Made by a program: the position numbers and the translations under genes
Assembly (NCBI GenBank): GCA_019247695.1
Contig: JAFBAP010000175.1
Coordinates: 1 to 34,125 of the forward strand
Length of the DNA: 34,125 nt
Origin: Verrucomicrobiota bacterium
GTDB taxonomy: Bacteria; Verrucomicrobiota; Verrucomicrobiia; Chthoniobacterales; JAFAMB01
Direction: 5' to 3'
Notes under the pieces: model-generated
What the model was told of the DNA's origin: nothing
Seen by the model: only the letters and a program-made list of their open reading frames with translations
The model's database searches: none
Shown: in pieces, positions 5,471-17,626 of the stretch
Numbering within the stretch: the stretch's first letter is position 1
How the letters are laid out: every line of letters starts with the position of its first letter

Positions 5471-7474
5471 TCAATCAAAAATTTGCTCGGAGCCGTCCTG
5501 ACCCACCTGCCGGCGGAGCCGGAAAATGTGGGCGGGCCGCTCGTGCGGGTTCAGCATCACGAAATTCCTGCGGCCACGCCAAAGGAACCGTTCCCCCGTA
5601 AGCAGATCGTGAAGCTGATAGGTCTCGTTTTCACCTAACCCAAACAGGTCGAGCGGAACCGAGGCGAACCCACTTTGAGGATTGTATGGATCGACTGTCA
5701 CAAAGACCAGAATAATGTTGTCCAGACCCACGGTGGCCTTCGAATAAAACAGGATCTGATCGTTATCGAACGGGTGAAATCTGAGGTTTTCGTACTCGTG
5801 CAGGGCACGGTTCTCGCGCCTGATCTCGTTAAGCTTGGTGATGTACCCTTTGATGTTGCCGGGCGCATTCCAGTCCCGCTCCTTGAACTGGTATTTTTCA
5901 GAATTCAGGTATTCCTCTTTGCCCGGGACCGGGACGTTTTCGCAAAGCTCAAACCCGCTGTAAATGCCGTATACGGTGCTGAGGGTGGTGGCCAGCACGG
6001 CGCGAATCAGGAAGCCGGGCCGTCCGCCGGTCTGGAGGTAGGCGGGCAGGATGTCGGGCGTGTTGGGGAAGAAGTTGCCCCGGAAATAGTAACGCATGTC
6101 CGTCTGCGTCAGTTCCGTCAGGTATTCGGTGAGCTCCCACTTGGTGTTACGCCAGGTGAAGTAGGTGTACGACTGCGTGAACCCGACCTTGGCCAGCGAC
6201 TTCATCATCTTGGGCCGCGTAAAGGCTTCCGATAAAAAGATCGCGTCAGGGTAATCGCGCTGGATCTCGCCGATGAGCCATTCCCAGAAGTGGATCGGTT
6301 TGGTGTGCGGATTATCCACGCGGAAAATGCGGACCTTGTGTTCGCACCAGAACCGGATGACGTCATACATCTCGTTCCACAGGTTCCGCCAGTCGGCGTT
6401 GTAAAAATTCAGCGGGTAAACGTCCTCGTACTTTTTCGGCGGGTTCTCGGCGTATTTGATGGTGCCGTCGGGGCGATGATAAAACCAATCCGGGTGATCC
6501 TTTACATACGGGTGATCCGGTGAACAGTTGATCGCGAAATCCAGCGCCACCTCCATGCCGCGCTTTTGGATTTCGCCGACCAGCCAATCGAAATCGTCCA
6601 GCGTACCCAGTTCGGGCTCGACGGCTTTATGGCCGCCGTACTGGCTGCCGATCGCATAGGGCACCCCGGGTTCACCCGGTTCACTCGTCACGGAATTGTT
6701 TCTGCCCTTGCGTTTGGTGAATCCGATCGGATGAACCGGCGGAAAATAGATGACGTCGAACCCCATCGCGCGCGCATCGTCCACCCGCGGCAGGCAGGTC
6801 CGGAACTTTGAACCCGAGTCCGGTTTGCCCTCGGCAGAACGCGGGAAAAACTCGTACCAGGCTGCAAAGAGCGCCCGGGGCCGGTCCACCGTAACCTTAA
6901 GGTAGGGACGGTATTCGGTTCCGAGGGTGCGGTCGGGCCAGGCGGTCATTAGACCGACGAAGGACTCATCGTTGGCGACCGTCGCGCCTTCCTGGACATC
7001 CCCGTTGCGTAGCCGGACAGCAAATCCCTCGAGCGTGGCCCGGTCTTCCGGCGTGGTGGCCCGCTGCGCCGTGTGTTCCGCCAGGAGCGCTCCCTCCTCC
7101 AATTCAGTCCGCAGGTCCTTCAGGCCTGCCCCAAACTTCTTCAGGTATTCCGTCCGCCACGTGCCGAACTCGTCTTGCCAGGCTTCAATCGTCAGATCGT
7201 AAGGCCGGTTCTCCGTGAATAAACAAGTGGCGGTCCACCGGTCATTTTCACCTGGGATCATGGGCGTTTCGAACCACGCCTCCTGACCCTGAGGCCGCCA
7301 CTTAAGAACGGCCGCGGTGACATCGTGACCCTCTTTAAGGATGTCCGCGGAGATCGTGAGGGATTCGCCGGCTACCCTCTTCACGGGGTAACGGCCGCCT
7401 TCGATGCTCGGCTGGATGTTCTCGATCACTACGGTCGGCGGCAACCGATCCAATTTGTCTTTGGGTGTGCTCAC
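5471..7474 (-). CDS. glgE: Alpha-1,4-glucan:maltose-1-phosphate maltosyltransferase
   Basis: A 667-residue GH13 enzyme that transfers maltose from maltose-1-phosphate to the non-reducing end of alpha-glucan. An N-terminal GlgE-type domain (about 12-200) precedes the barrel. The catalytic nucleophile is D387 in FRVDNPHTKP and the acid/base is E416 in LSEAFTRPKMM; their 29-residue spacing equals that of the well-known Streptomyces GlgE. Length is normal. The start is GTG at 7474 with only a weak ribosome binding site. The upstream kinase frame runs 140 bp into this gene. None of the usual partner genes (treS, pep2, glgB) is in the window. The APH-fold kinase just upstream is a conceivable source of an anomeric sugar phosphate, but that is speculation. 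Confidence 0.93.
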   Translation of the reverse strand: MSTPKDKLDRLPPTVVIENIQPSIEGGRYPVKRVAGESLTISADILKEGHDVTAAVLKWRPQGQEAWFETPMIPGENDRWTATCLFTENRPYDLTIEAWQDEFGTWRTEYLKKFGAGLKDLRTELEEGALLAEHTAQRATTPEDRATLEGFAVRLRNGDVQEGATVANDESFVGLMTAWPDRTLGTEYRPYLKVTVDRPRALFAAWYEFFPRSAEGKPDSGSKFRTCLPRVDDARAMGFDVIYFPPVHPIGFTKRKGRNNSVTSEPGEPGVPYAIGSQYGGHKAVEPELGTLDDFDWLVGEIQKRGMEVALDFAINCSPDHPYVKDHPDWFYHRPDGTIKYAENPPKKYEDVYPLNFYNADWRNLWNEMYDVIRFWCEHKVRIFRVDNPHTKPIHFWEWLIGEIQRDYPDAIFLSEAFTRPKMMKSLAKVGFTQSYTYFTWRNTKWELTEYLTELTQTDMRYYFRGNFFPNTPDILPAYLQTGGRPGFLIRAVLATTLSTVYGIYSGFELCENVPVPGKEEYLNSEKYQFKERDWNAPGNIKGYITKLNEIRRENRALHEYENLRFHPFDNDQILFYSKATVGLDNIILVFVTVDPYNPQSGFASVPLDLFGLGENETYQLHDLLTGERFLWRGRRNFVMLNPHERPAHIFRLRRQVGQDGSEQIFD

Positions 7475-8522
7475 AAGCTTTGCTCGGGTTTAGGTTGGGT
7501 GTGGGGCTGGGGCTGGGGCTGGGGATGAAGCGGGGTGGGGGACACTCGAGGAGTCGGGCGCTAAACTCCGCCAGGAAACTAAAGCCTTCAATCTGAGACG
7601 CAACCTCCTGCAGGTTGCGCAACGCGGGATGAATGTGGCGCAGAAATTCCGGTTTGCCGCGCAGAAGCCCGATCGTGCCGTAAGCACCAAGGGCTTGCAG
7701 CAGACGCTGAACCGCGCATCGCCGGAATAGATCGGTAAACTCGTCGAGGCCGGACGGCGCCGACGCCCGCACATGATAGTAGCGCAGCAGTTCGGCCCGC
7801 TCCTCCGCCGTTAAGGTTACGTACGGATCGTAGAGGAGTGAAGCCAGGTCGTAAGCCGCCAGGCCGCTTCGCATCCCTTGGAAATCGATCAGGTACGATT
7901 CCCCTTCCCAGATGAGAATGTTCTGCGATTGCAGGTCGCGATGAATCAGTTGGGGTGAATGACTGCAGAGCTGAGCCGGCAGGCGCGCCAGGGCCGGGGC
8001 CGTCGCCAGTTCCCGGAGCTGTCCGGAAGGAATGCCGAAGCAGCGGCTGAAACAGTTTTCAAACCCGTAGTTTTGTTCCCAGCGGTAGAGGCCCTCGTCA
8101 AAGCCGGGCACCAACCCTAGCCCTTTAGTAGCGCGCAGGGGAACGGCGTGCAGAGCAGCTACCTGGTCCAAAACGTTCTCGTAGAGACCCTGGCGGACCG
8201 GCCACGGGTGGTGACGGTAATGCCACAGGTCCGTGTTGCCGAGGTCCTGCATCCAGATCAGGCCTTCAGCCGGGTCGTGATGGTAGATGAACGGCGCCTT
8301 GATTCCGGTATCCTCAAGGAAGTTCGCGATGGCGACGAAACGCGCGTTCTCGGATTTTTGCGGGTCGTACTTAACGAGAATAAGCGAATATTCTTCGCTC
8401 ATCGCGATCCGGTAATACTTACGGTCCGAGCCGCCCTTTTCCAGAGAAGCGACTTCAACCGCGTACTGTTTGTACCGGGGGAACCGCCCCCGCGTTTCAC
8501 TGATAAGGTGCTCGAGGCTCAT
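7335..8522 (-). CDS. AmgK-like anomeric sugar kinase (APH fold)
   Basis: The protein is 395 residues. Its catalytic core (about 1-340) matches aminoglycoside-phosphotransferase-fold kinases of the AmgK type, which phosphorylate N-acetylmuramate at the anomeric carbon for cell-wall recycling. The catalytic loop reads LIHRDLQSQNILIW and the metal-binding motif LIDFQGMRSG. The ATG at 8522 overlaps the stop of the nucleotidyltransferase gene in an ATGA, implying translational coupling and matching the AmgK-MurU pairing known in Pseudomonas. The last ~50 residues look unnatural: a PSPSPSP run encoded by a GGGGCT hexamer repeat, then an Arg-rich tail that overlaps glgE by 140 bp. The original stop was probably lost near the repeat. 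Alternative: a kinase for another sugar, including one serving GlgE. Confidence 0.8.
   Translation of the reverse strand: MSLEHLISETRGRFPRYKQYAVEVASLEKGGSDRKYYRIAMSEEYSLILVKYDPQKSENARFVAIANFLEDTGIKAPFIYHHDPAEGLIWMQDLGNTDLWHYRHHPWPVRQGLYENVLDQVAALHAVPLRATKGLGLVPGFDEGLYRWEQNYGFENCFSRCFGIPSGQLRELATAPALARLPAQLCSHSPQLIHRDLQSQNILIWEGESYLIDFQGMRSGLAAYDLASLLYDPYVTLTAEERAELLRYYHVRASAPSGLDEFTDLFRRCAVQRLLQALGAYGTIGLLRGKPEFLRHIHPALRNLQEVASQIEGFSFLAEFSARLLECPPPRFIPSPSPSPTPNLNPSKACEHTQRQIGSVAADRSDREHPAEHRRRPLPREEGSRRIPHDLRGHP
7503..7526. repeat. GGGGCT hexamer tandem repeat in kinase 3' end
   Basis: Three GGGGCT units and one GGGGAT lie in the 3' part of the amgK-like gene, just upstream of the glgE start. 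On the coding strand they read as Ser-Pro repeats. They mark the point where the kinase stops resembling its family and continues as a repeat-derived tail. Confidence 0.8.
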
Positions 8523-9475
8523 GAACAAAAATCCTGGCTGAGGAACGTGCCGGGTCCGACTGCCTGACCGGCGACGACGCAGCCCTCGAGACGGGTGCCG
8601 GGCGCCACTCGGGAGCGTGGCCAGACGATCGTGTCGTGCAGCACGGCCCCGGGTCCCACCTGCGCGCCAGGCGCCACCCAGGTCGCCCCCGTTGCCGCAT
8701 AGCGCCCGTCCCCGGTCACCTCCTCCGGAGCCCACCATGGTTCCGGGGTGAACGCCGGCTGCCAGGCCGCGGTGACAAGCAACCGGTGCAAGGCCAGGTA
8801 GTCGCGGCGGGTGCCCACATTGAACCAGCCGCCGCCGTTCAACACCACCCCGCCGAGCCGGCCGCCCCGCCTCAGGCAATCCAGCAACATCGTAACCAGC
8901 GGCCGCGGGCCCGATTCATACGGCCGCAACACTTCCCCATTGAGAATCGCGGCGTTGGCGTAATCCACCCGTTCGGGTGCCGGCCGCCCCAGAGCCGATT
9001 GCAGATCGACCACCTGCCCGGTGGCCGGATCAAAGGCCACCTGCGCGGCCAGACCCGTGTCTCGCAGAGCGAGGGTCACGGCATTGTTATCCCGGTAATG
9101 CGCTTCAACCACGGCGCCAAGATCGATGTCTGTAACCACGTCCCCGCTGTGCACCAATACCGGCTCACCCGCAAACCAATCCCGCGCGTTTACCAGCGCC
9201 CCACCGGTTTCCAGCAGTTCCGGCTCGTGAAAAATCCGCAGGTCGGATCCGGGACCAAGCAGCTTGGGAAGGCAAGCCTGGAACGCGGAAACGGAGTGAT
9301 GCGCGTTAACGGCAAAGTCTCTGACGCCAAGCTGTTCCAGGTGTTGAAGCGCAAAACCAACGATCGGACGGCCCAGAACCGGTAGCAGCGGCTTCGGCCG
9401 CACCCGCGTCAGGGGAAGCAGCCGCGTTCCCAGACCTGCCGCCAGGATAAATGCCTTTTCGATGCGCGCCGTCAT
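8519..9475 (-). CDS. MurU-like sugar-1-phosphate nucleotidyltransferase
   Basis: A 318-residue nucleotidyltransferase. The signature LAAGLGTRLLPLTRVRPKPLLPV (residues 11-33) is the nucleotide and Mg-binding loop, followed by SGDVVTD (metal Asp) and NGGGWFNVGTRRDY. The C-terminal part (about 265-318) has hexapeptide-like left-handed beta-helix repeats (GATWVAPGAQVGPGAV). Together with the coupled AmgK-like kinase it would convert a recycled sugar, by analogy MurNAc, through the 1-phosphate to the UDP sugar. The C-terminal hexapeptide repeats are not needed in Pseudomonas MurU, so the substrate could be a different hexose. The ATG at 9475 is preferred over an upstream start because conserved sequence begins within nine residues. 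It is the first gene of the minus-strand block, directly downstream of the repeat mosaic. Confidence 0.83.
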   Translation of the reverse strand: MTARIEKAFILAAGLGTRLLPLTRVRPKPLLPVLGRPIVGFALQHLEQLGVRDFAVNAHHSVSAFQACLPKLLGPGSDLRIFHEPELLETGGALVNARDWFAGEPVLVHSGDVVTDIDLGAVVEAHYRDNNAVTLALRDTGLAAQVAFDPATGQVVDLQSALGRPAPERVDYANAAILNGEVLRPYESGPRPLVTMLLDCLRRGGRLGGVVLNGGGWFNVGTRRDYLALHRLLVTAAWQPAFTPEPWWAPEEVTGDGRYAATGATWVAPGAQVGPGAVLHDTIVWPRSRVAPGTRLEGCVVAGQAVGPGTFLSQDFCS

Positions 9476-9574
9476 GCTCAGGGAAAAGTGGCACGCTAGC
9501 GCGTATCCCGGCCGCAAGGCAAGGCTCGGTCACACGGCGGCCGCAGCGGGCGTGGCGGGCACAACGACTGAGTT

Positions 9575-9820: not shown

Positions 9821-10329
9821 ACCGGTGGAAGGTGCCGCTAATGGCTCAGCGTTTGTGGCATTCTCCCGGCACCCGGCACCCGACACCCTCTTACATTTGT
9901 GGCATTCTCTGCCGTGGCGTTTATAAATGGCGGGGGGCGATCGACTGATGAAATCAATCCTGTTTTCCGGTTGCCGGTTTTTCACCGTGACGGCGCTGCC
10001 GGGGCGAAACCCGGTCTGGGGACCTGATTCGGGTCACCTCATCTTTGCCTGCAGCTCCGGACTTTACTTTACATGCTGGATACGGTCGGCAATCGTGAGA
10101 CTCGCAGCATGGGAGACCTGGGACGAACCTCGGAACTGGCAGATTCCGCCGTTGGAAATGCCAAAACTGCAGCGCCGCGTCACCTGATTTGTGATATCCG
10201 GCTTTCATCCTTGCCCGCCTTGTTCTGAAAACCAGAACGGCCCCCGGGCAATTTATCACGCTTGGCGAACGTTGGCAGAAACACGCTTTGATCAGGTGCC
10301 GGCCGCACCACACAGGGACCCCTGAATCC
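9821..10329. other. Non-coding stretch upstream of the sigma factor gene
   Basis: No convincing gene is present. The word TTTGTGGCATTCTC occurs twice (near 9854 and 9895) in a stretch that also carries CACCCGGCACCCGACACC, so repeat material continues to about 9920. From 9950 on the sequence looks unique but has no codon pattern or recognisable family. It presumably holds the promoter of the sigma factor operon; no -35/-10 pair was clear enough to name. Confidence 0.5.
10222..10238. promoter_or_regulatory. Perfect GTTCTG/CAGAAC palindrome upstream of the sigma gene
   Basis: GTTCTG-AAAAC-CAGAAC is a perfect 6-bp inverted repeat with a 5-nt spacer, about 90 bp before the sigma factor start. It could be an operator or a small RNA hairpin. 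No U-tract follows, so a terminator is unlikely. Confidence 0.35.
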
Positions 10330-10917
10330 ATGGAGGATGCATCGCTGCCCGATGACGAGACGCTTGTGCGCCGGACCCAGAGCGGCGACACCAGAGCCTT
10401 CGATACGCTCTGGCAGAAGTACAGCCCCCGTATTTATTCGCTCGTCTACAACATGACGTCCAACCACGAGGACGCCAATGACCTGCTGCTCGAAATTTTT
10501 TCCAAGGCCTACCGATCGATCAACGGTTTTCGCGGCCGGTCGAGCTTTTACACCTGGATTCACGCCATCGCAGTCAATATGACGATCAACTTCGTCAAAA
10601 AACGCGGCCGCCGCGTCCAGATGAGCCTCGACGATATGGACACCAACGTGCAGAATGACAAGGATTTCCTCGAGTTGACGGCCACGAACACGCCTTTGCG
10701 CGAGGTGGACCTCTCAGAGTTGCAAAAGAGATTGAACGAAGCCATGCAGAAACTGTCTGTAGAGCACAGAGCAGTTGTGACGATGTTCGATATCCAAGGC
10801 ATGCCGCACGCTGAAATCGCCCGGATTCTGGGCGTACCTGAGGCGACGGTTCGTTCACGGCTGTTCTACGCACATAGGCAGTTGCAGAATTATCTCGAAG
10901 AGTTTAGAAAGAAATGA
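10330..10917 (+). CDS. ECF-type RNA polymerase sigma factor
   Basis: A 195-residue sigma-70 family protein of the extracytoplasmic-function (RpoE-like) class. Region 2 spans about 25-95 (FDTLWQKYSPRIYSL, EIFSKAYRSINGFRGRSSFYTWI) and region 4 about 135-190 (LSVEHRAVVTMFDIQGMPHAEIARILGVPEATVRSRLFYA, a helix-turn-helix that reads -35 elements). The ATG at 10330 places the conserved start 15 residues before region 2; a longer form starting upstream would add unconserved residues. The stop overlaps the ATG of the next gene, so the two are coupled. It probably responds to envelope stress, judging from its membrane-protein and PDZ-protein neighbours (inference). Confidence 0.92.
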   Translation: MEDASLPDDETLVRRTQSGDTRAFDTLWQKYSPRIYSLVYNMTSNHEDANDLLLEIFSKAYRSINGFRGRSSFYTWIHAIAVNMTINFVKKRGRRVQMSLDDMDTNVQNDKDFLELTATNTPLREVDLSELQKRLNEAMQKLSVEHRAVVTMFDIQGMPHAEIARILGVPEATVRSRLFYAHRQLQNYLEEFRKK

Positions 10918-11405
10918 TGCTCGACGAACAGCAGGTACAGCAGCTTCTTCGGCTTAAGCGGTTCGAGCAACCTCCCCCTGGATATTTCGACCAGGCGCTG
11001 CACGAATTCCATCGGCGTCAACGCGCAGAACTGCTTCGGCGGTCCGCATTTCGTATTTGGTGGGAGCGCACCGCGTCAGGCCTATTCACCCTTCGCGTCC
11101 CGAACTATGCCTATGGAGGCGCCTTCGCCATCTTTTGCGTTATGGCAACGCTCGTCGGCTCAGGCGTGTTTAACTTGCCCCCAGAACCCGAACTGGCGTC
11201 GAGCCCGGCCGTGGGTACGGTCTCGTTTGGCGCCAGTACGGTTGCCGGCCGGCTCACGCTTAACCACAAATTTGAATGGGCCGATCTTGAGCGCGCCGCC
11301 CGCCTGCGACTCGCGCCTTCCATCGCTCCATCAAGTACCAGTCTTCCCCGCTATGTGCTCGATGGACGCCGTCCGGTGAGCACCGAAGCTTCCTTTAACT
11401 TCTGA
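10914..11405 (+). CDS. Single-pass membrane protein, candidate anti-sigma factor
   Basis: The protein is 163 residues and its ATG overlaps the sigma factor stop by 4 bp. Residues 1-60 are charged and presumably cytoplasmic (LLRLKRFEQPPPGYFDQAL). A hydrophobic segment at about 67-86 would span the membrane. The remaining ~75 residues would be periplasmic. Position and topology fit an anti-sigma factor. The usual zinc anti-sigma motif (HxxxCxxC) is absent, and no known anti-sigma domain is recognised. Function is therefore inferred from context only. Confidence 0.75.
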   Translation: MMLDEQQVQQLLRLKRFEQPPPGYFDQALHEFHRRQRAELLRRSAFRIWWERTASGLFTLRVPNYAYGGAFAIFCVMATLVGSGVFNLPPEPELASSPAVGTVSFGASTVAGRLTLNHKFEWADLERAARLRLAPSIAPSSTSLPRYVLDGRRPVSTEASFNF

Positions 11406-11585
11406 ATGGTAAGGCATGTCGTCCAGGCCTTGGTTCATTTCGGCCCCGTGTGTGTTGGCATCAGCCGGCGGTGGAATGGTTGAAGGGGGCGATTCGCTGG
11501 CGTGATGCTTAACCAGGCTGCCTACCGCTCCCACCCTGTTCCCGGACGGGCGGCTGCAATCGAGGTGATCGAATGCCCAGGGGTG

Positions 11586-12614
11586 ATGCCCCGGTTGTCG
11601 CGGATGGCTGGTGTATTGCTGCTTTTGCTCAGCACGGCCGGCTTTGCCCGTTCGCAGGATACGCTGGCTTCCATCTCGGCCGACGTTCAACGTATCTACG
11701 AGAGCGCTAAAGGCGCGGTGGTTCGGATCGAGTCGGAGGACGATTTCGGCAAGCTCGCCGGGACCGGGTTTCTCATTGATCCGAACGGCACCATCTACAC
11801 GGCGTACGACGTCGGGGGCGAGTCGCGCGATATCACCGTCGAGTTCGGATCCAAGCGTTACCCCGGCCATCGTCTGGTTGCGGATGCCAAAAGCGGGGTG
11901 GCCATCCTGAAAGTCGATGCCAATACGCCCTGGATCCCGCTGGGTAACTCGGATGAATTGAAGCTGGCCTCACCCATCGTTTCCATCGGCTATCCGCTTG
12001 ACCTGCCGGCCACCCCCAGTTTCGGCCTGATCGGTGGGTTCGACCTGAAGTATTTGAACCGTTATTTTTCAACGACGCTCGTGCGCGCCAATTTGCCGGT
12101 GCAAAAGGGCGAAGCGGGGTCGCCCATCCTCAACCTGAAAGGGCAGGCGGTGGGGATCCTGATCCGCAGCATCGGTAACGAATCGGCCTGTTACGCCCTG
12201 CCGATGAAGGCTGCCGAGAAAATCCGGGCCGACTACGTCCGTTACGGTGCGGTCCGTCCCGGTTGGCTGGGAGTGTCCGTGCGCGAACGCGATTACGCCA
12301 TCAAGGATTCCAAGGTCGAGGTTTCCAGCTTGGAAGAACATTCGCCCGCGGAAAATTCGGGGCTCCGGGTGGGTGATACCCTGCTGCAGGTCGGTCAGGT
12401 AAAAGTCCGAATCGCGCCCGATGCGTTGAACGTGGCGTTTTTCCTGACCGTCGGAGACCGGGTGCCGGTGACCGTAGTGCGTGACGGCAAAGACCTGACT
12501 TTCAAGCTCACGGTCGCAGACATGCCGGCGTCGCCGAACCAGGCACCCTCCATGCTGATACCCGGGTTGCCCTCAGAATTGCGTAGCCCGGCCGAGTTTC
12601 CGAGTTACCCCTGA
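11586..12614 (+). CDS. HtrA/Deg-like PDZ protein lacking the catalytic triad
   Basis: The protein is 342 residues: a signal peptide (about 1-23), a trypsin-like domain (about 28-205) and a PDZ domain (about 220-315). The fold is clear (GTGFLIDPNGTIYTA, IVSIGYPLD, WLGVSVR), but all three catalytic positions are changed. The His of the TxxHVV motif is D75 (YTAYDVGG). The Asp of the TDLAVLK motif is G104 (KSGVAILKV). The Ser of GNSGGP is A167 (GEAGSPI). It is thus probably a non-proteolytic, peptide-binding periplasmic protein. It lies 180 bp downstream of the sigma/membrane protein pair, reminiscent of DegS-type control but without cleavage. An upstream GTG at 11502 is possible; the ATG at 11586 gives a normal signal peptide. 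Confidence 0.85.
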   Translation: MPRLSRMAGVLLLLLSTAGFARSQDTLASISADVQRIYESAKGAVVRIESEDDFGKLAGTGFLIDPNGTIYTAYDVGGESRDITVEFGSKRYPGHRLVADAKSGVAILKVDANTPWIPLGNSDELKLASPIVSIGYPLDLPATPSFGLIGGFDLKYLNRYFSTTLVRANLPVQKGEAGSPILNLKGQAVGILIRSIGNESACYALPMKAAEKIRADYVRYGAVRPGWLGVSVRERDYAIKDSKVEVSSLEEHSPAENSGLRVGDTLLQVGQVKVRIAPDALNVAFFLTVGDRVPVTVVRDGKDLTFKLTVADMPASPNQAPSMLIPGLPSELRSPAEFPSYP

Positions 12615-16326: not shown

Positions 16327-16359
16327 TACCCGTTACTCGTTACCGGTTCTCCGTGCCGC
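16327..16359 (+). repeat. Heptamer repeat, left copy flanking the TIR cassette
   Basis: The units are TACCCGT, TACTCGT, TACCGGT, TCTCCGT and a GCCGC tail. The final 26 bp (16334-16359) are identical to 17689-17714. The copy starts 11 bp after the ABC ATPase stop. The orientation is the same as in the right copy, so the two form direct repeats about 1.35 kb apart. Confidence 0.92.
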
Positions 16360-16444
16360 GCTCAGCTTCTTCCGTTGATCCGCTTTTCTCGCCTCGCCCA
16401 TATCAAACGCGCTGGCGGAGAGACCTCCTGAATCATATACCTTT

Positions 16445-16460
16445 TAACGCGGAGAACGCG
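16445..16460 (+). promoter_or_regulatory. Repeat-like ribosome binding site of the TIR gene
   Basis: AACGCGGAGAACGCG lies directly before the ATG at 16461. Its GGAG (16451-16454) is spaced 6 nt from the start, a good Shine-Dalgarno arrangement. The same word family occurs at 16249-16272 in the repeat mosaic, so the binding site appears to be made of repeat sequence. Confidence 0.6.
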
Positions 16461-16976
16461 ATGTGCGACGTTTTTATTTCCTACTCATCCGATGCGAGAC
16501 CTTGGGCTGAAAGGCTGTCCGAGTCTCTGGAACGTAAAGGGATATCAACCTGGACGGACTTCAAAAACCTTGCGCCTGCTCAGCGGTGGGTTGAAGAACT
16601 TCAGGATGCCTTAGATAAGGCCAGGTACTTTGTCATCCTTGTAGGGCCCGAGAAGCGCGTTGGATCGCAGCAGGATCGAGAATGGCAGGGCGCCTTGAAA
16701 GGTATTTGGACCGATCCCAACAAGCGTATCATTCCTGTGCTTGTCGGCGATGCCACGCTCCCTTCGTTTTTGAACGACTGGCTATCCGTTCGAATGCACC
16801 CGGGCAAACCGGAATCCTCCTGGATTGATGAGGTATGCGAGACAATCCGTGAGACCGGCCCGGAAGAGTCAAGTAAGGTGACGAAACGAACGGCACGCCC
16901 GGACAAGGCGCTCCGACATCGCTTGGCAAAGATTGAAAGGGCAGCAAAACAGCTGAAGTCCGGCCAGGAAAAGTAG
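16461..16976 (+). CDS. TIR-domain protein, candidate NADase effector or signal producer
   Basis: The protein is 171 residues. Residues 1-115 are a TIR domain: MCDVFISYSSDARPWAERL (strand A, loop and helix A), KGISTWTDFKNL (strand B and BB-loop region), LDKARYFVILVGPEK (strand C) and RIIPVLVGDATLPSFL (strand D and after). E74 in SQQDREWQGAL sits where NAD-cleaving TIR proteins carry the catalytic Glu, so enzyme activity is plausible. The C-terminal ~45 residues are basic and carry no recognised domain. The start at 16461 is chosen because conserved sequence begins at residue 2 and a good GGAG lies 6 nt upstream. It is followed 2 nt later by a partner gene. The codons look less GC-rich than those of neighbours, suggesting acquisition. 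A defence role is inference from family knowledge. Confidence 0.87.
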   Translation: MCDVFISYSSDARPWAERLSESLERKGISTWTDFKNLAPAQRWVEELQDALDKARYFVILVGPEKRVGSQQDREWQGALKGIWTDPNKRIIPVLVGDATLPSFLNDWLSVRMHPGKPESSWIDEVCETIRETGPEESSKVTKRTARPDKALRHRLAKIERAAKQLKSGQEK

Positions 16977-16978
16977 CG

Positions 16979-17626
16979 ATGGGCGCGGAGCGCAGGCGGG
17001 AACACTTCGGCACTGGTGCGTTGAGCCTCAATCCCGCGACCTCAGTGTTTCTGAATTGCCCTTATGATCTCGAATACCGGTCGAATTTTGATGCGGCCGT
17101 GTTGACCGTGATCTGCTGCGGATTCATGCCGAGATGTGCTTTGGAGAGCGGTACCGTAGCCGAGCATAGAATGGATCGGATCATCGGCCCCATTTTCGAA
17201 TCAAAGTACTCAATACACGACCGATCCCGCTGTAAAGGAGAAGGGGACGCCAACCTGGCGCGCTTTAACATGCCACTCGAACTTGGCATCGCAATGGCGC
17301 GTCGGCACCAGATGAGGCGCAAGGCCCAAAGGCATGATTGGCTTGCCATCGTACCTGCGGAACACGAATACGCTCGTTTCATTTCGGACGTGGCTGGATT
17401 CGATCTCATGCGCTACGATGGCTCCAAAGAGGGCTTGGTCTCCGCCATCATGCCGTCGTTGGCCACCCGATGGGAGGCGAAAGGCACGCTGAAGTCCGAG
17501 CACGTGCTCAAGGCTCTTCCTGGGTTTGAGCAGGAAATGCGGACGTTGCGAGAAGAGTGGCGGAATCAGCCACCGTGGGCCGACATCGTCCTCGCGGCGC
17601 TCGAGATTGTTAAGCGCATTGCGTGA
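16979..17626 (+). CDS. Partner of the TIR protein, Rossmann-like unknown family
   Basis: A 215-residue protein starting 2 nt after the TIR stop, so probably cotranscribed and coupled. Conserved-looking segments are SVFLNCPYD (22-30), CCGFMPRCALE (46-56), RMDRIIGPI (64-72), KYSIHDRSR (76-84), ARFNMPLELGIAM (94-106) and FISDVAGFD (134-142). From memory, a widespread uncharacterised family carries this same order of motifs (FINCPFD, CALE, GIHDISR, RFNMPFELG, FISDIAG). The alternation of strands and helices, and a Glu in the PLELG motif, resemble the nucleoside deoxyribosyltransferase/DRHyd superfamily, which includes nucleotide-cleaving conflict effectors. That placement is inference. The last ~50 residues are helical (EQEMRTLREEWRNQPPW). 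No transmembrane segment is seen. It may sense the trigger, modify the TIR product or be a second effector. Confidence 0.75.
   Translation: MGAERRREHFGTGALSLNPATSVFLNCPYDLEYRSNFDAAVLTVICCGFMPRCALESGTVAEHRMDRIIGPIFESKYSIHDRSRCKGEGDANLARFNMPLELGIAMARRHQMRRKAQRHDWLAIVPAEHEYARFISDVAGFDLMRYDGSKEGLVSAIMPSLATRWEAKGTLKSEHVLKALPGFEQEMRTLREEWRNQPPWADIVLAALEIVKRIA

Follow-up and report, generated by a model that had tools for sequence, protein, structure and literature searches.

The stretch of DNA analysed here (the window) is 34,125 nucleotides long and comes from an assembly of 5.19 Mb in 191 contigs, whose near relatives in a genome collection are metagenome-assembled Verrucomicrobiota. It carries three compactly arranged genes in the same direction that encode, in this order, an ECF sigma factor, a single-pass membrane protein, and an HtrA-like protein with a replaced catalytic triad that will be referred to as pseudo-HtrA (Table 1). 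A sigma factor and a single-pass membrane protein ahead of the HtrA-like gene had been reported in the initial annotation, and both are borne out directly upstream of it; the membrane protein ORF overlaps the stop codon of the sigma gene. The sigma ORF was listed from a TTG at 10288, and the ATG used here is the start common to the aligned family-f1 loci. A longer ORF for pseudo-HtrA, from a GTG at 11502, also exists. The best NCBIfam model for the sigma factor is TIGR02939 (RpoE), at 135.9 bits and under that model's cut-off of 236. A promoter search upstream of the sigma gene found no conserved element in eight family-f1 loci, and the window gave no hit in scans for Rfam families or tRNAs.

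Two other gene pairs lie in the window. A TIR-domain protein (16353-16976; TIR_2, 6.6e-23) has directly next to it a gene at 16979-17626 with no Pfam or PADLOC match, and 16353-17626 is a possible two-gene TIR module, for which the PADLOC matches are only weak. An aminoglycoside-phosphotransferase-like gene overlaps a nucleotidyltransferase gene (7335-8879 and 8519-9517 (-)), a pair that we take to be reminiscent of the AmgK-MurU cell-wall recycling pair.

Table 1. Coordinates of the genes, domains, and residues discussed in the text.
Feature	Position	Strand	Basis or remark
ECF sigma factor, RpoE-like	10330..10917	+	Sigma70_r2 and r4_2 above cut-off
Single-pass membrane protein, 163 aa, putative anti-sigma factor	10914..11405	+	ORF
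Transmembrane helix, residues 64-82	11103..11159	+	fused AlphaFold model; family hydropathy
Conserved C-terminal tail LPRYVLDGRRPVSTEASFNF, last residue Phe	11343..11402	+	F/Y in 100/100
Pseudo-HtrA ORF	11586..12614	+	342 aa, from ATG 11586 through stop 12614
Asp75 at the catalytic His site	11808..11810	+	alignment with intact HtrA paralogues, same genome
Gly104 at the catalytic Asp site	11895..11897	+	same-genome paralogue alignment; Gly in 70/104 members
Arg167, family residue	12084..12086	+	Gln in the 4 own active HtrAs compared
Ala177 at the catalytic Ser site	12114..12116	+	alignment with intact HtrA paralogues, same genome
PDZ domain, residues 224-310	12255..12515	+	Pfam PDZ and PDZ_2; AlphaFold structure
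PDZ carboxylate-binding loop GWLGV, residues 226-230	12261..12275	+	W227 at AlgW W281

The N-terminus of pseudo-HtrA reads as signal-peptide-like, and the protein matches Trypsin_2 (2.5e-16) and PDZ_2 (9.6e-13) above the Pfam cut-offs. An AlphaFold model with 30 orthologues in the alignment (pLDDT 87.6, pTM 0.82) has DegP/DegQ as its best matches in the PDB, with a Z of 31 and an rmsd of 2.4-2.5 over 284-285 residues. The HtrA/S1C fold, a trypsin-like domain with a C-terminal PDZ domain, is present and the HtrA/S1C His-Asp-Ser triad is absent. The location, HtrA fold, and intact PDZ domain given in the initial annotation agree with the ORF and with the Pfam and AlphaFold/PDB matches.

Relatives of pseudo-HtrA were found with matches at 1e-32 in 163 of 197 genomes of the same order and with profile matches at 1e-40 in 97 of 188 genomes of the class. 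Proteins with at least 190 bits were counted as members, whereas scores of at most 154 bits were assigned to ordinary HtrAs. A sample of 194 genomes of the phylum yielded one member outside the class (G357, 227.8 bits), and it is found in the same operon and also has a dead triad. The window, 30 regions from the order, and 73 further regions make up a set of 104 members with flanks, from which one truncated at a contig edge (G161) was left out; four of the 104 rows have a stop inside the stretch read (L049, L148, L156, L162).

The three triad replacements proposed initially, D75, G104, and an alanine at the Ser site, are confirmed by alignment with four paralogues of the same genome, which were compared at the triad sites and at R167. 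The alanine had been numbered A167 by a slip; it is A177, and residue 167 is an arginine that is kept in 91/104 members, as F285 is in 99/104. Three other paralogues (L006-L008) were left out of this comparison and have H, D, and S at the triad sites in a separate alignment. Together with L005 they make up a group of four on a single 28 kb contig (G000:C44), all HtrA-like ORFs that carry His, Asp, and Ser at these sites. The triad is intact in none of the 104 members and one of its three residues is retained in 11, and the catalytic Asp column holds Gly in 70 and Asn in 26. Since every member of the family is affected, the substitutions are not due to chance. A triad that is shifted and still intact, which the initial annotation had named as evidence against its reading, was sought across the 104 members and none was found, and in a search of the same members for a substitute triad no His, Ser, Cys, or Lys column fitted. 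The best-conserved columns of these kinds hold His in 77/104 (Leu in the window protein), Ser in 72, Cys in 55, and Lys in 74. Judged by its sequence, pseudo-HtrA cannot cut. The His column corresponds to residue 165 of the window protein, two residues before R167, and is not the catalytic His site.

In a quick tree, computed with long-branch warnings from 46 members, eight divergent forms from family f15, and nine intact HtrAs (L007 left out), the nine intact HtrAs form one side of a branch with an SH-aLRT of 98, so a single loss of the triad suffices. The f15 forms come from eight loci with a very divergent HtrA that has also lost the triad and falls below the 1e-40 class threshold. The dN/dS of pseudo-HtrA against a same-genus relative is 0.096 at a dS of 0.60, which indicates purifying selection, and values range from 0.03 to 0.10. 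These comparisons argue that pseudo-HtrA is an old pseudoprotease family that has been kept for very long by one bacterial group.

The arrangement of the operon is kept along with the protein. In 99 of the 104 regions pseudo-HtrA is preceded by a sigma gene of the same orientation, and the membrane protein gene sits between the two; in three of the five regions that lack the sigma gene the contig ends at most 237 bases upstream. In one genome (G158) pseudo-HtrA stands alone (L116) and the sigma and membrane protein genes are on another contig (L236). In one region (L052, G019:C11) the place of the sigma factor is taken by ORFs resembling a sensor histidine kinase and a response regulator, and this region retains pseudo-HtrA and a membrane protein ending in LRF. 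Genes beyond the three vary even inside the order. An ECF sigma factor that adjoins a single-pass membrane regulator is a feature of RpoE/RseA/DegS-type systems, and a homologue of the site-2 protease RseP is encoded in the genome (G000:C84, TIGR00054 above cut-off). The operon's own HtrA does not qualify as the active site-1 protease because its triad is dead; intact HtrAs are also encoded in the same genome.

A profile located the membrane protein in 98 of the 104 regions, and inspection by eye added two more (L117, L138), for a total of 100. Its profile matches at 0.001 in 162 of the 188 class genomes make it more widespread in the class than pseudo-HtrA. The protein matches no known anti-sigma family, with no match in Pfam and none in the PDB at E up to 10. 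It was modelled with AlphaFold fused to pseudo-HtrA (10914-12611 as a single chain in which Gly replaced the stops, both genes being in one frame), and helices were obtained at residues 5-16 (short), 24-59 (long), and 64-82, the last at the hydrophobic segment. The cytoplasmic part and the C-terminal motif are conserved and the linker between them varies in length and sequence. The membrane protein is a putative anti-sigma factor of an undescribed family.

The last residue of the membrane protein is Phe in 90 and Tyr in 10 of the 100 operons and Phe in all of 20 further membrane-protein loci; among 428 long ORFs of the same regions, 15 end in F or Y. The entropy is 0.47 bits at the last position and 2.3-3.9 over the preceding 39. 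The tail is usually of the form hydrophobic-x-Phe, with mostly Val, Leu, or Phe at position -2. According to a study on AlgW and DegS (PMC8545111), the PDZ domains of these proteases accept aromatic residues at positions 0 and -2, and AlgW needs W281, L282, and V284, since the respective Ala mutants cut much less. W227 of pseudo-HtrA aligns with AlgW W281 in the phmmer ranges, which places W-L-G-V of the loop on W281/L282/V284. The loop is intact across the family (W227 in 96/104, G229 in 104/104), and W227 is kept with 88 of 90 F-ended and 4 of 10 Y-ended partners. The BamA-like protein of this genome ends in SVGYQF and a second Omp85 protein in FGFAF. By its sequence the tail belongs to the ligand class of HtrA PDZ domains, and to be such a ligand would be its role.

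Docking of the tail was not seen in the fused AlphaFold model, where the tail is disordered (pLDDT <50) and the alignment is thin; this is a weak test because the tail is not a free C-terminus in the fused chain. Mutual information between the tail and the PDZ groove gave no convincing signal: it was enriched at one of eight tail positions, and the last residue was not enriched.

In forty-two loci no pseudo-HtrA lies within the fetched flanks, which span ~1.5 kb around L203-L213 and up to 2.5 kb around the others, and the respective genomes lack a member-level match; some of these loci may hide still more divergent forms. The tail ends in F or Y in 11 of these 42 loci versus 107 of 109 loci with an adjacent pseudo-HtrA. 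Three loci were left out of this table, namely L214 (no membrane-protein ORF), L236 (pseudo-HtrA unlinked), and L215 (a second, sigma-less match of one genome). Region L012 serves in the analysis in both a short and a long role. By genus, all tails are aromatic in 64 of 65 genera with an adjacent pseudo-HtrA and in 7 of 28 without, a contrast with a Fisher value of 6e-14 that ignores ancestry. On the sigma tree pseudo-HtrA changes independently just six times, and the tail follows in about three cases, stays in three, and moves in reverse in none (p 0.25), so with ancestry counted the association lends weak support. At two g30 loci the HtrA is divergent and dead, yet the tail ends in Met.

We consider it somewhat better than an even chance that the three genes form an envelope-sensing switch, in which an RseA-like anti-sigma factor has its tail held by a dead HtrA that acts as an RseB-like shield. 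The membrane protein would retain the ECF sigma factor at the membrane through its short cytoplasmic N-terminus, and its poorly conserved periplasmic linker ends in a conserved hydrophobic-x-Phe sequence similar to the C-termini of outer-membrane proteins. The exported pseudo-HtrA would grip this tail in its PDZ groove and shield the anti-sigma factor from a real site-1 protease. Unfolded outer-membrane proteins, which have the same class of C-terminus, would compete for the PDZ domain and free the tail, and an active HtrA followed by the RseP homologue would then destroy the anti-sigma factor and release sigma. The retention of sigma and the holding and shielding of the tail by the PDZ domain are likely parts of this scheme; competition by outer-membrane proteins and the proteolysis after it are the least certain. 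The initial annotation had suggested an envelope-sensing circuit in which the PDZ protein binds rather than cleaves. As a design, this suggestion has good support from the conserved operon, the dead site in 104/104 members, the intact PDZ loop, and the PDZ-type tail, but the single structural docking attempt, that with the fused model, was negative. The C-terminal ligand on the membrane protein and the class-wide conservation go beyond it. More tentatively, the C-terminus of the anti-sigma factor might mimic the C-terminal signal of outer-membrane proteins, and the dead HtrA might gauge unfolded outer-membrane proteins by competition between PDZ ligands; it would possibly be a sensor of protease descent that relies solely on binding and was fixed early in the history of the bacterial class.

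Pseudo-HtrA could instead be an adaptor that joins an active HtrA and either delivers the tethered anti-sigma factor to it or switches it on, which we think unlikely. HtrAs are oligomeric, the genome has intact ones, and all of the comparative data fit an adaptor equally well. MamO, a pseudoprotease that activates MamE (PMC4794232), provides a precedent; an active HtrA is, however, not a constant part of the operon.

The loci without pseudo-HtrA bear on another explanation, namely that the tail is read by an active HtrA as a DegS-like trigger and that pseudo-HtrA is a periplasmic chaperone or a regulon target that merely shares the operon. In genus g21 (L203, L204, L208, L209, L213, L257-L259) the membrane protein has a Phe tail and no pseudo-HtrA was found, and the HtrAs fetched from three g21 genomes have H-D-S intact, so that a live HtrA may have taken over there. 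F-ended forms also occur without an adjacent pseudo-HtrA in family f24, where four loci (L237, L246, L250, L253) encode relatives of ~320 residues that end in KF or RF. In most lineages without pseudo-HtrA, however, the terminal Phe is absent: 31 of the 42 loci are not F/Y-ended, and in genus g120 the upstream part of the motif can still be recognised while the last residue has become Lys, Pro, Arg, or Gln. This explanation appears quite improbable. It is hardly credible that pseudo-HtrA is a gene copy in decay or a protease still active through a shifted triad: its triad residues are indeed replaced, but the low dN/dS and the open frame and place conserved through the class speak against decay, and no His, Ser, Cys, or Lys column is conserved in more than 77/104 members.

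If the three-gene switch with a dead HtrA as shield is true, bacteria would have a second way to sense trouble at the outer membrane, one in which the PDZ input of the DegS pathway is kept, the blade is removed, and the ligand is moved onto the anti-sigma factor. It would also provide a function hypothesis for two widespread families, the pseudoprotease and a membrane protein without a Pfam match. Neither this operon nor a pseudo-HtrA acting in a sigma circuit turned up in searches of open-licence PMC papers.

In the RpoE pathway, as outlined in PMC8103513, RseB shields RseA, and DegS, which is activated through its PDZ domain by the C-termini of outer-membrane proteins, cuts RseA. The operon resembles both the RpoE-RseA-RseB-DegS pathway of E. 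coli and the AlgU-MucA-MucB-AlgW pathway of Pseudomonas in having an RpoE-like sigma factor with a single-pass regulator, a periplasmic partner, and an HtrA-type PDZ domain suited to hydrophobic-x-Phe C-termini, and an RseP homologue is present in this genome also. In contrast to these pathways, the operon encodes a catalytically dead HtrA and has the PDZ-type ligand on the membrane regulator itself; no RseB is seen in it, and its regulator cannot be recognised as RseA. The RseB fold probably differs from the HtrA fold, and residues 23-321 of the pseudo-HtrA model align to HtrA chains; the likeness to RseB/MucB is one of functional analogy only. The magnetosome pseudoprotease MamO is likewise derived from HtrA and has lost its triad, and it is kept in a non-catalytic role (PMC4794232). 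MamO differs in its genomic setting, and pseudo-HtrA scores 31.6 bits against the NCBIfam MamO model, which has a cut-off of 800. A parallel to the tail is MucE-AlgW, where a C-terminal hydrophobic-x-Phe tail (WVF) docks to an HtrA PDZ domain that has the W-L-x-V loop of pseudo-HtrA (PMC8545111). The MucE peptide activates a live protease, whereas here the tail is that of a putative anti-sigma factor and the HtrA that would bind it is dead.
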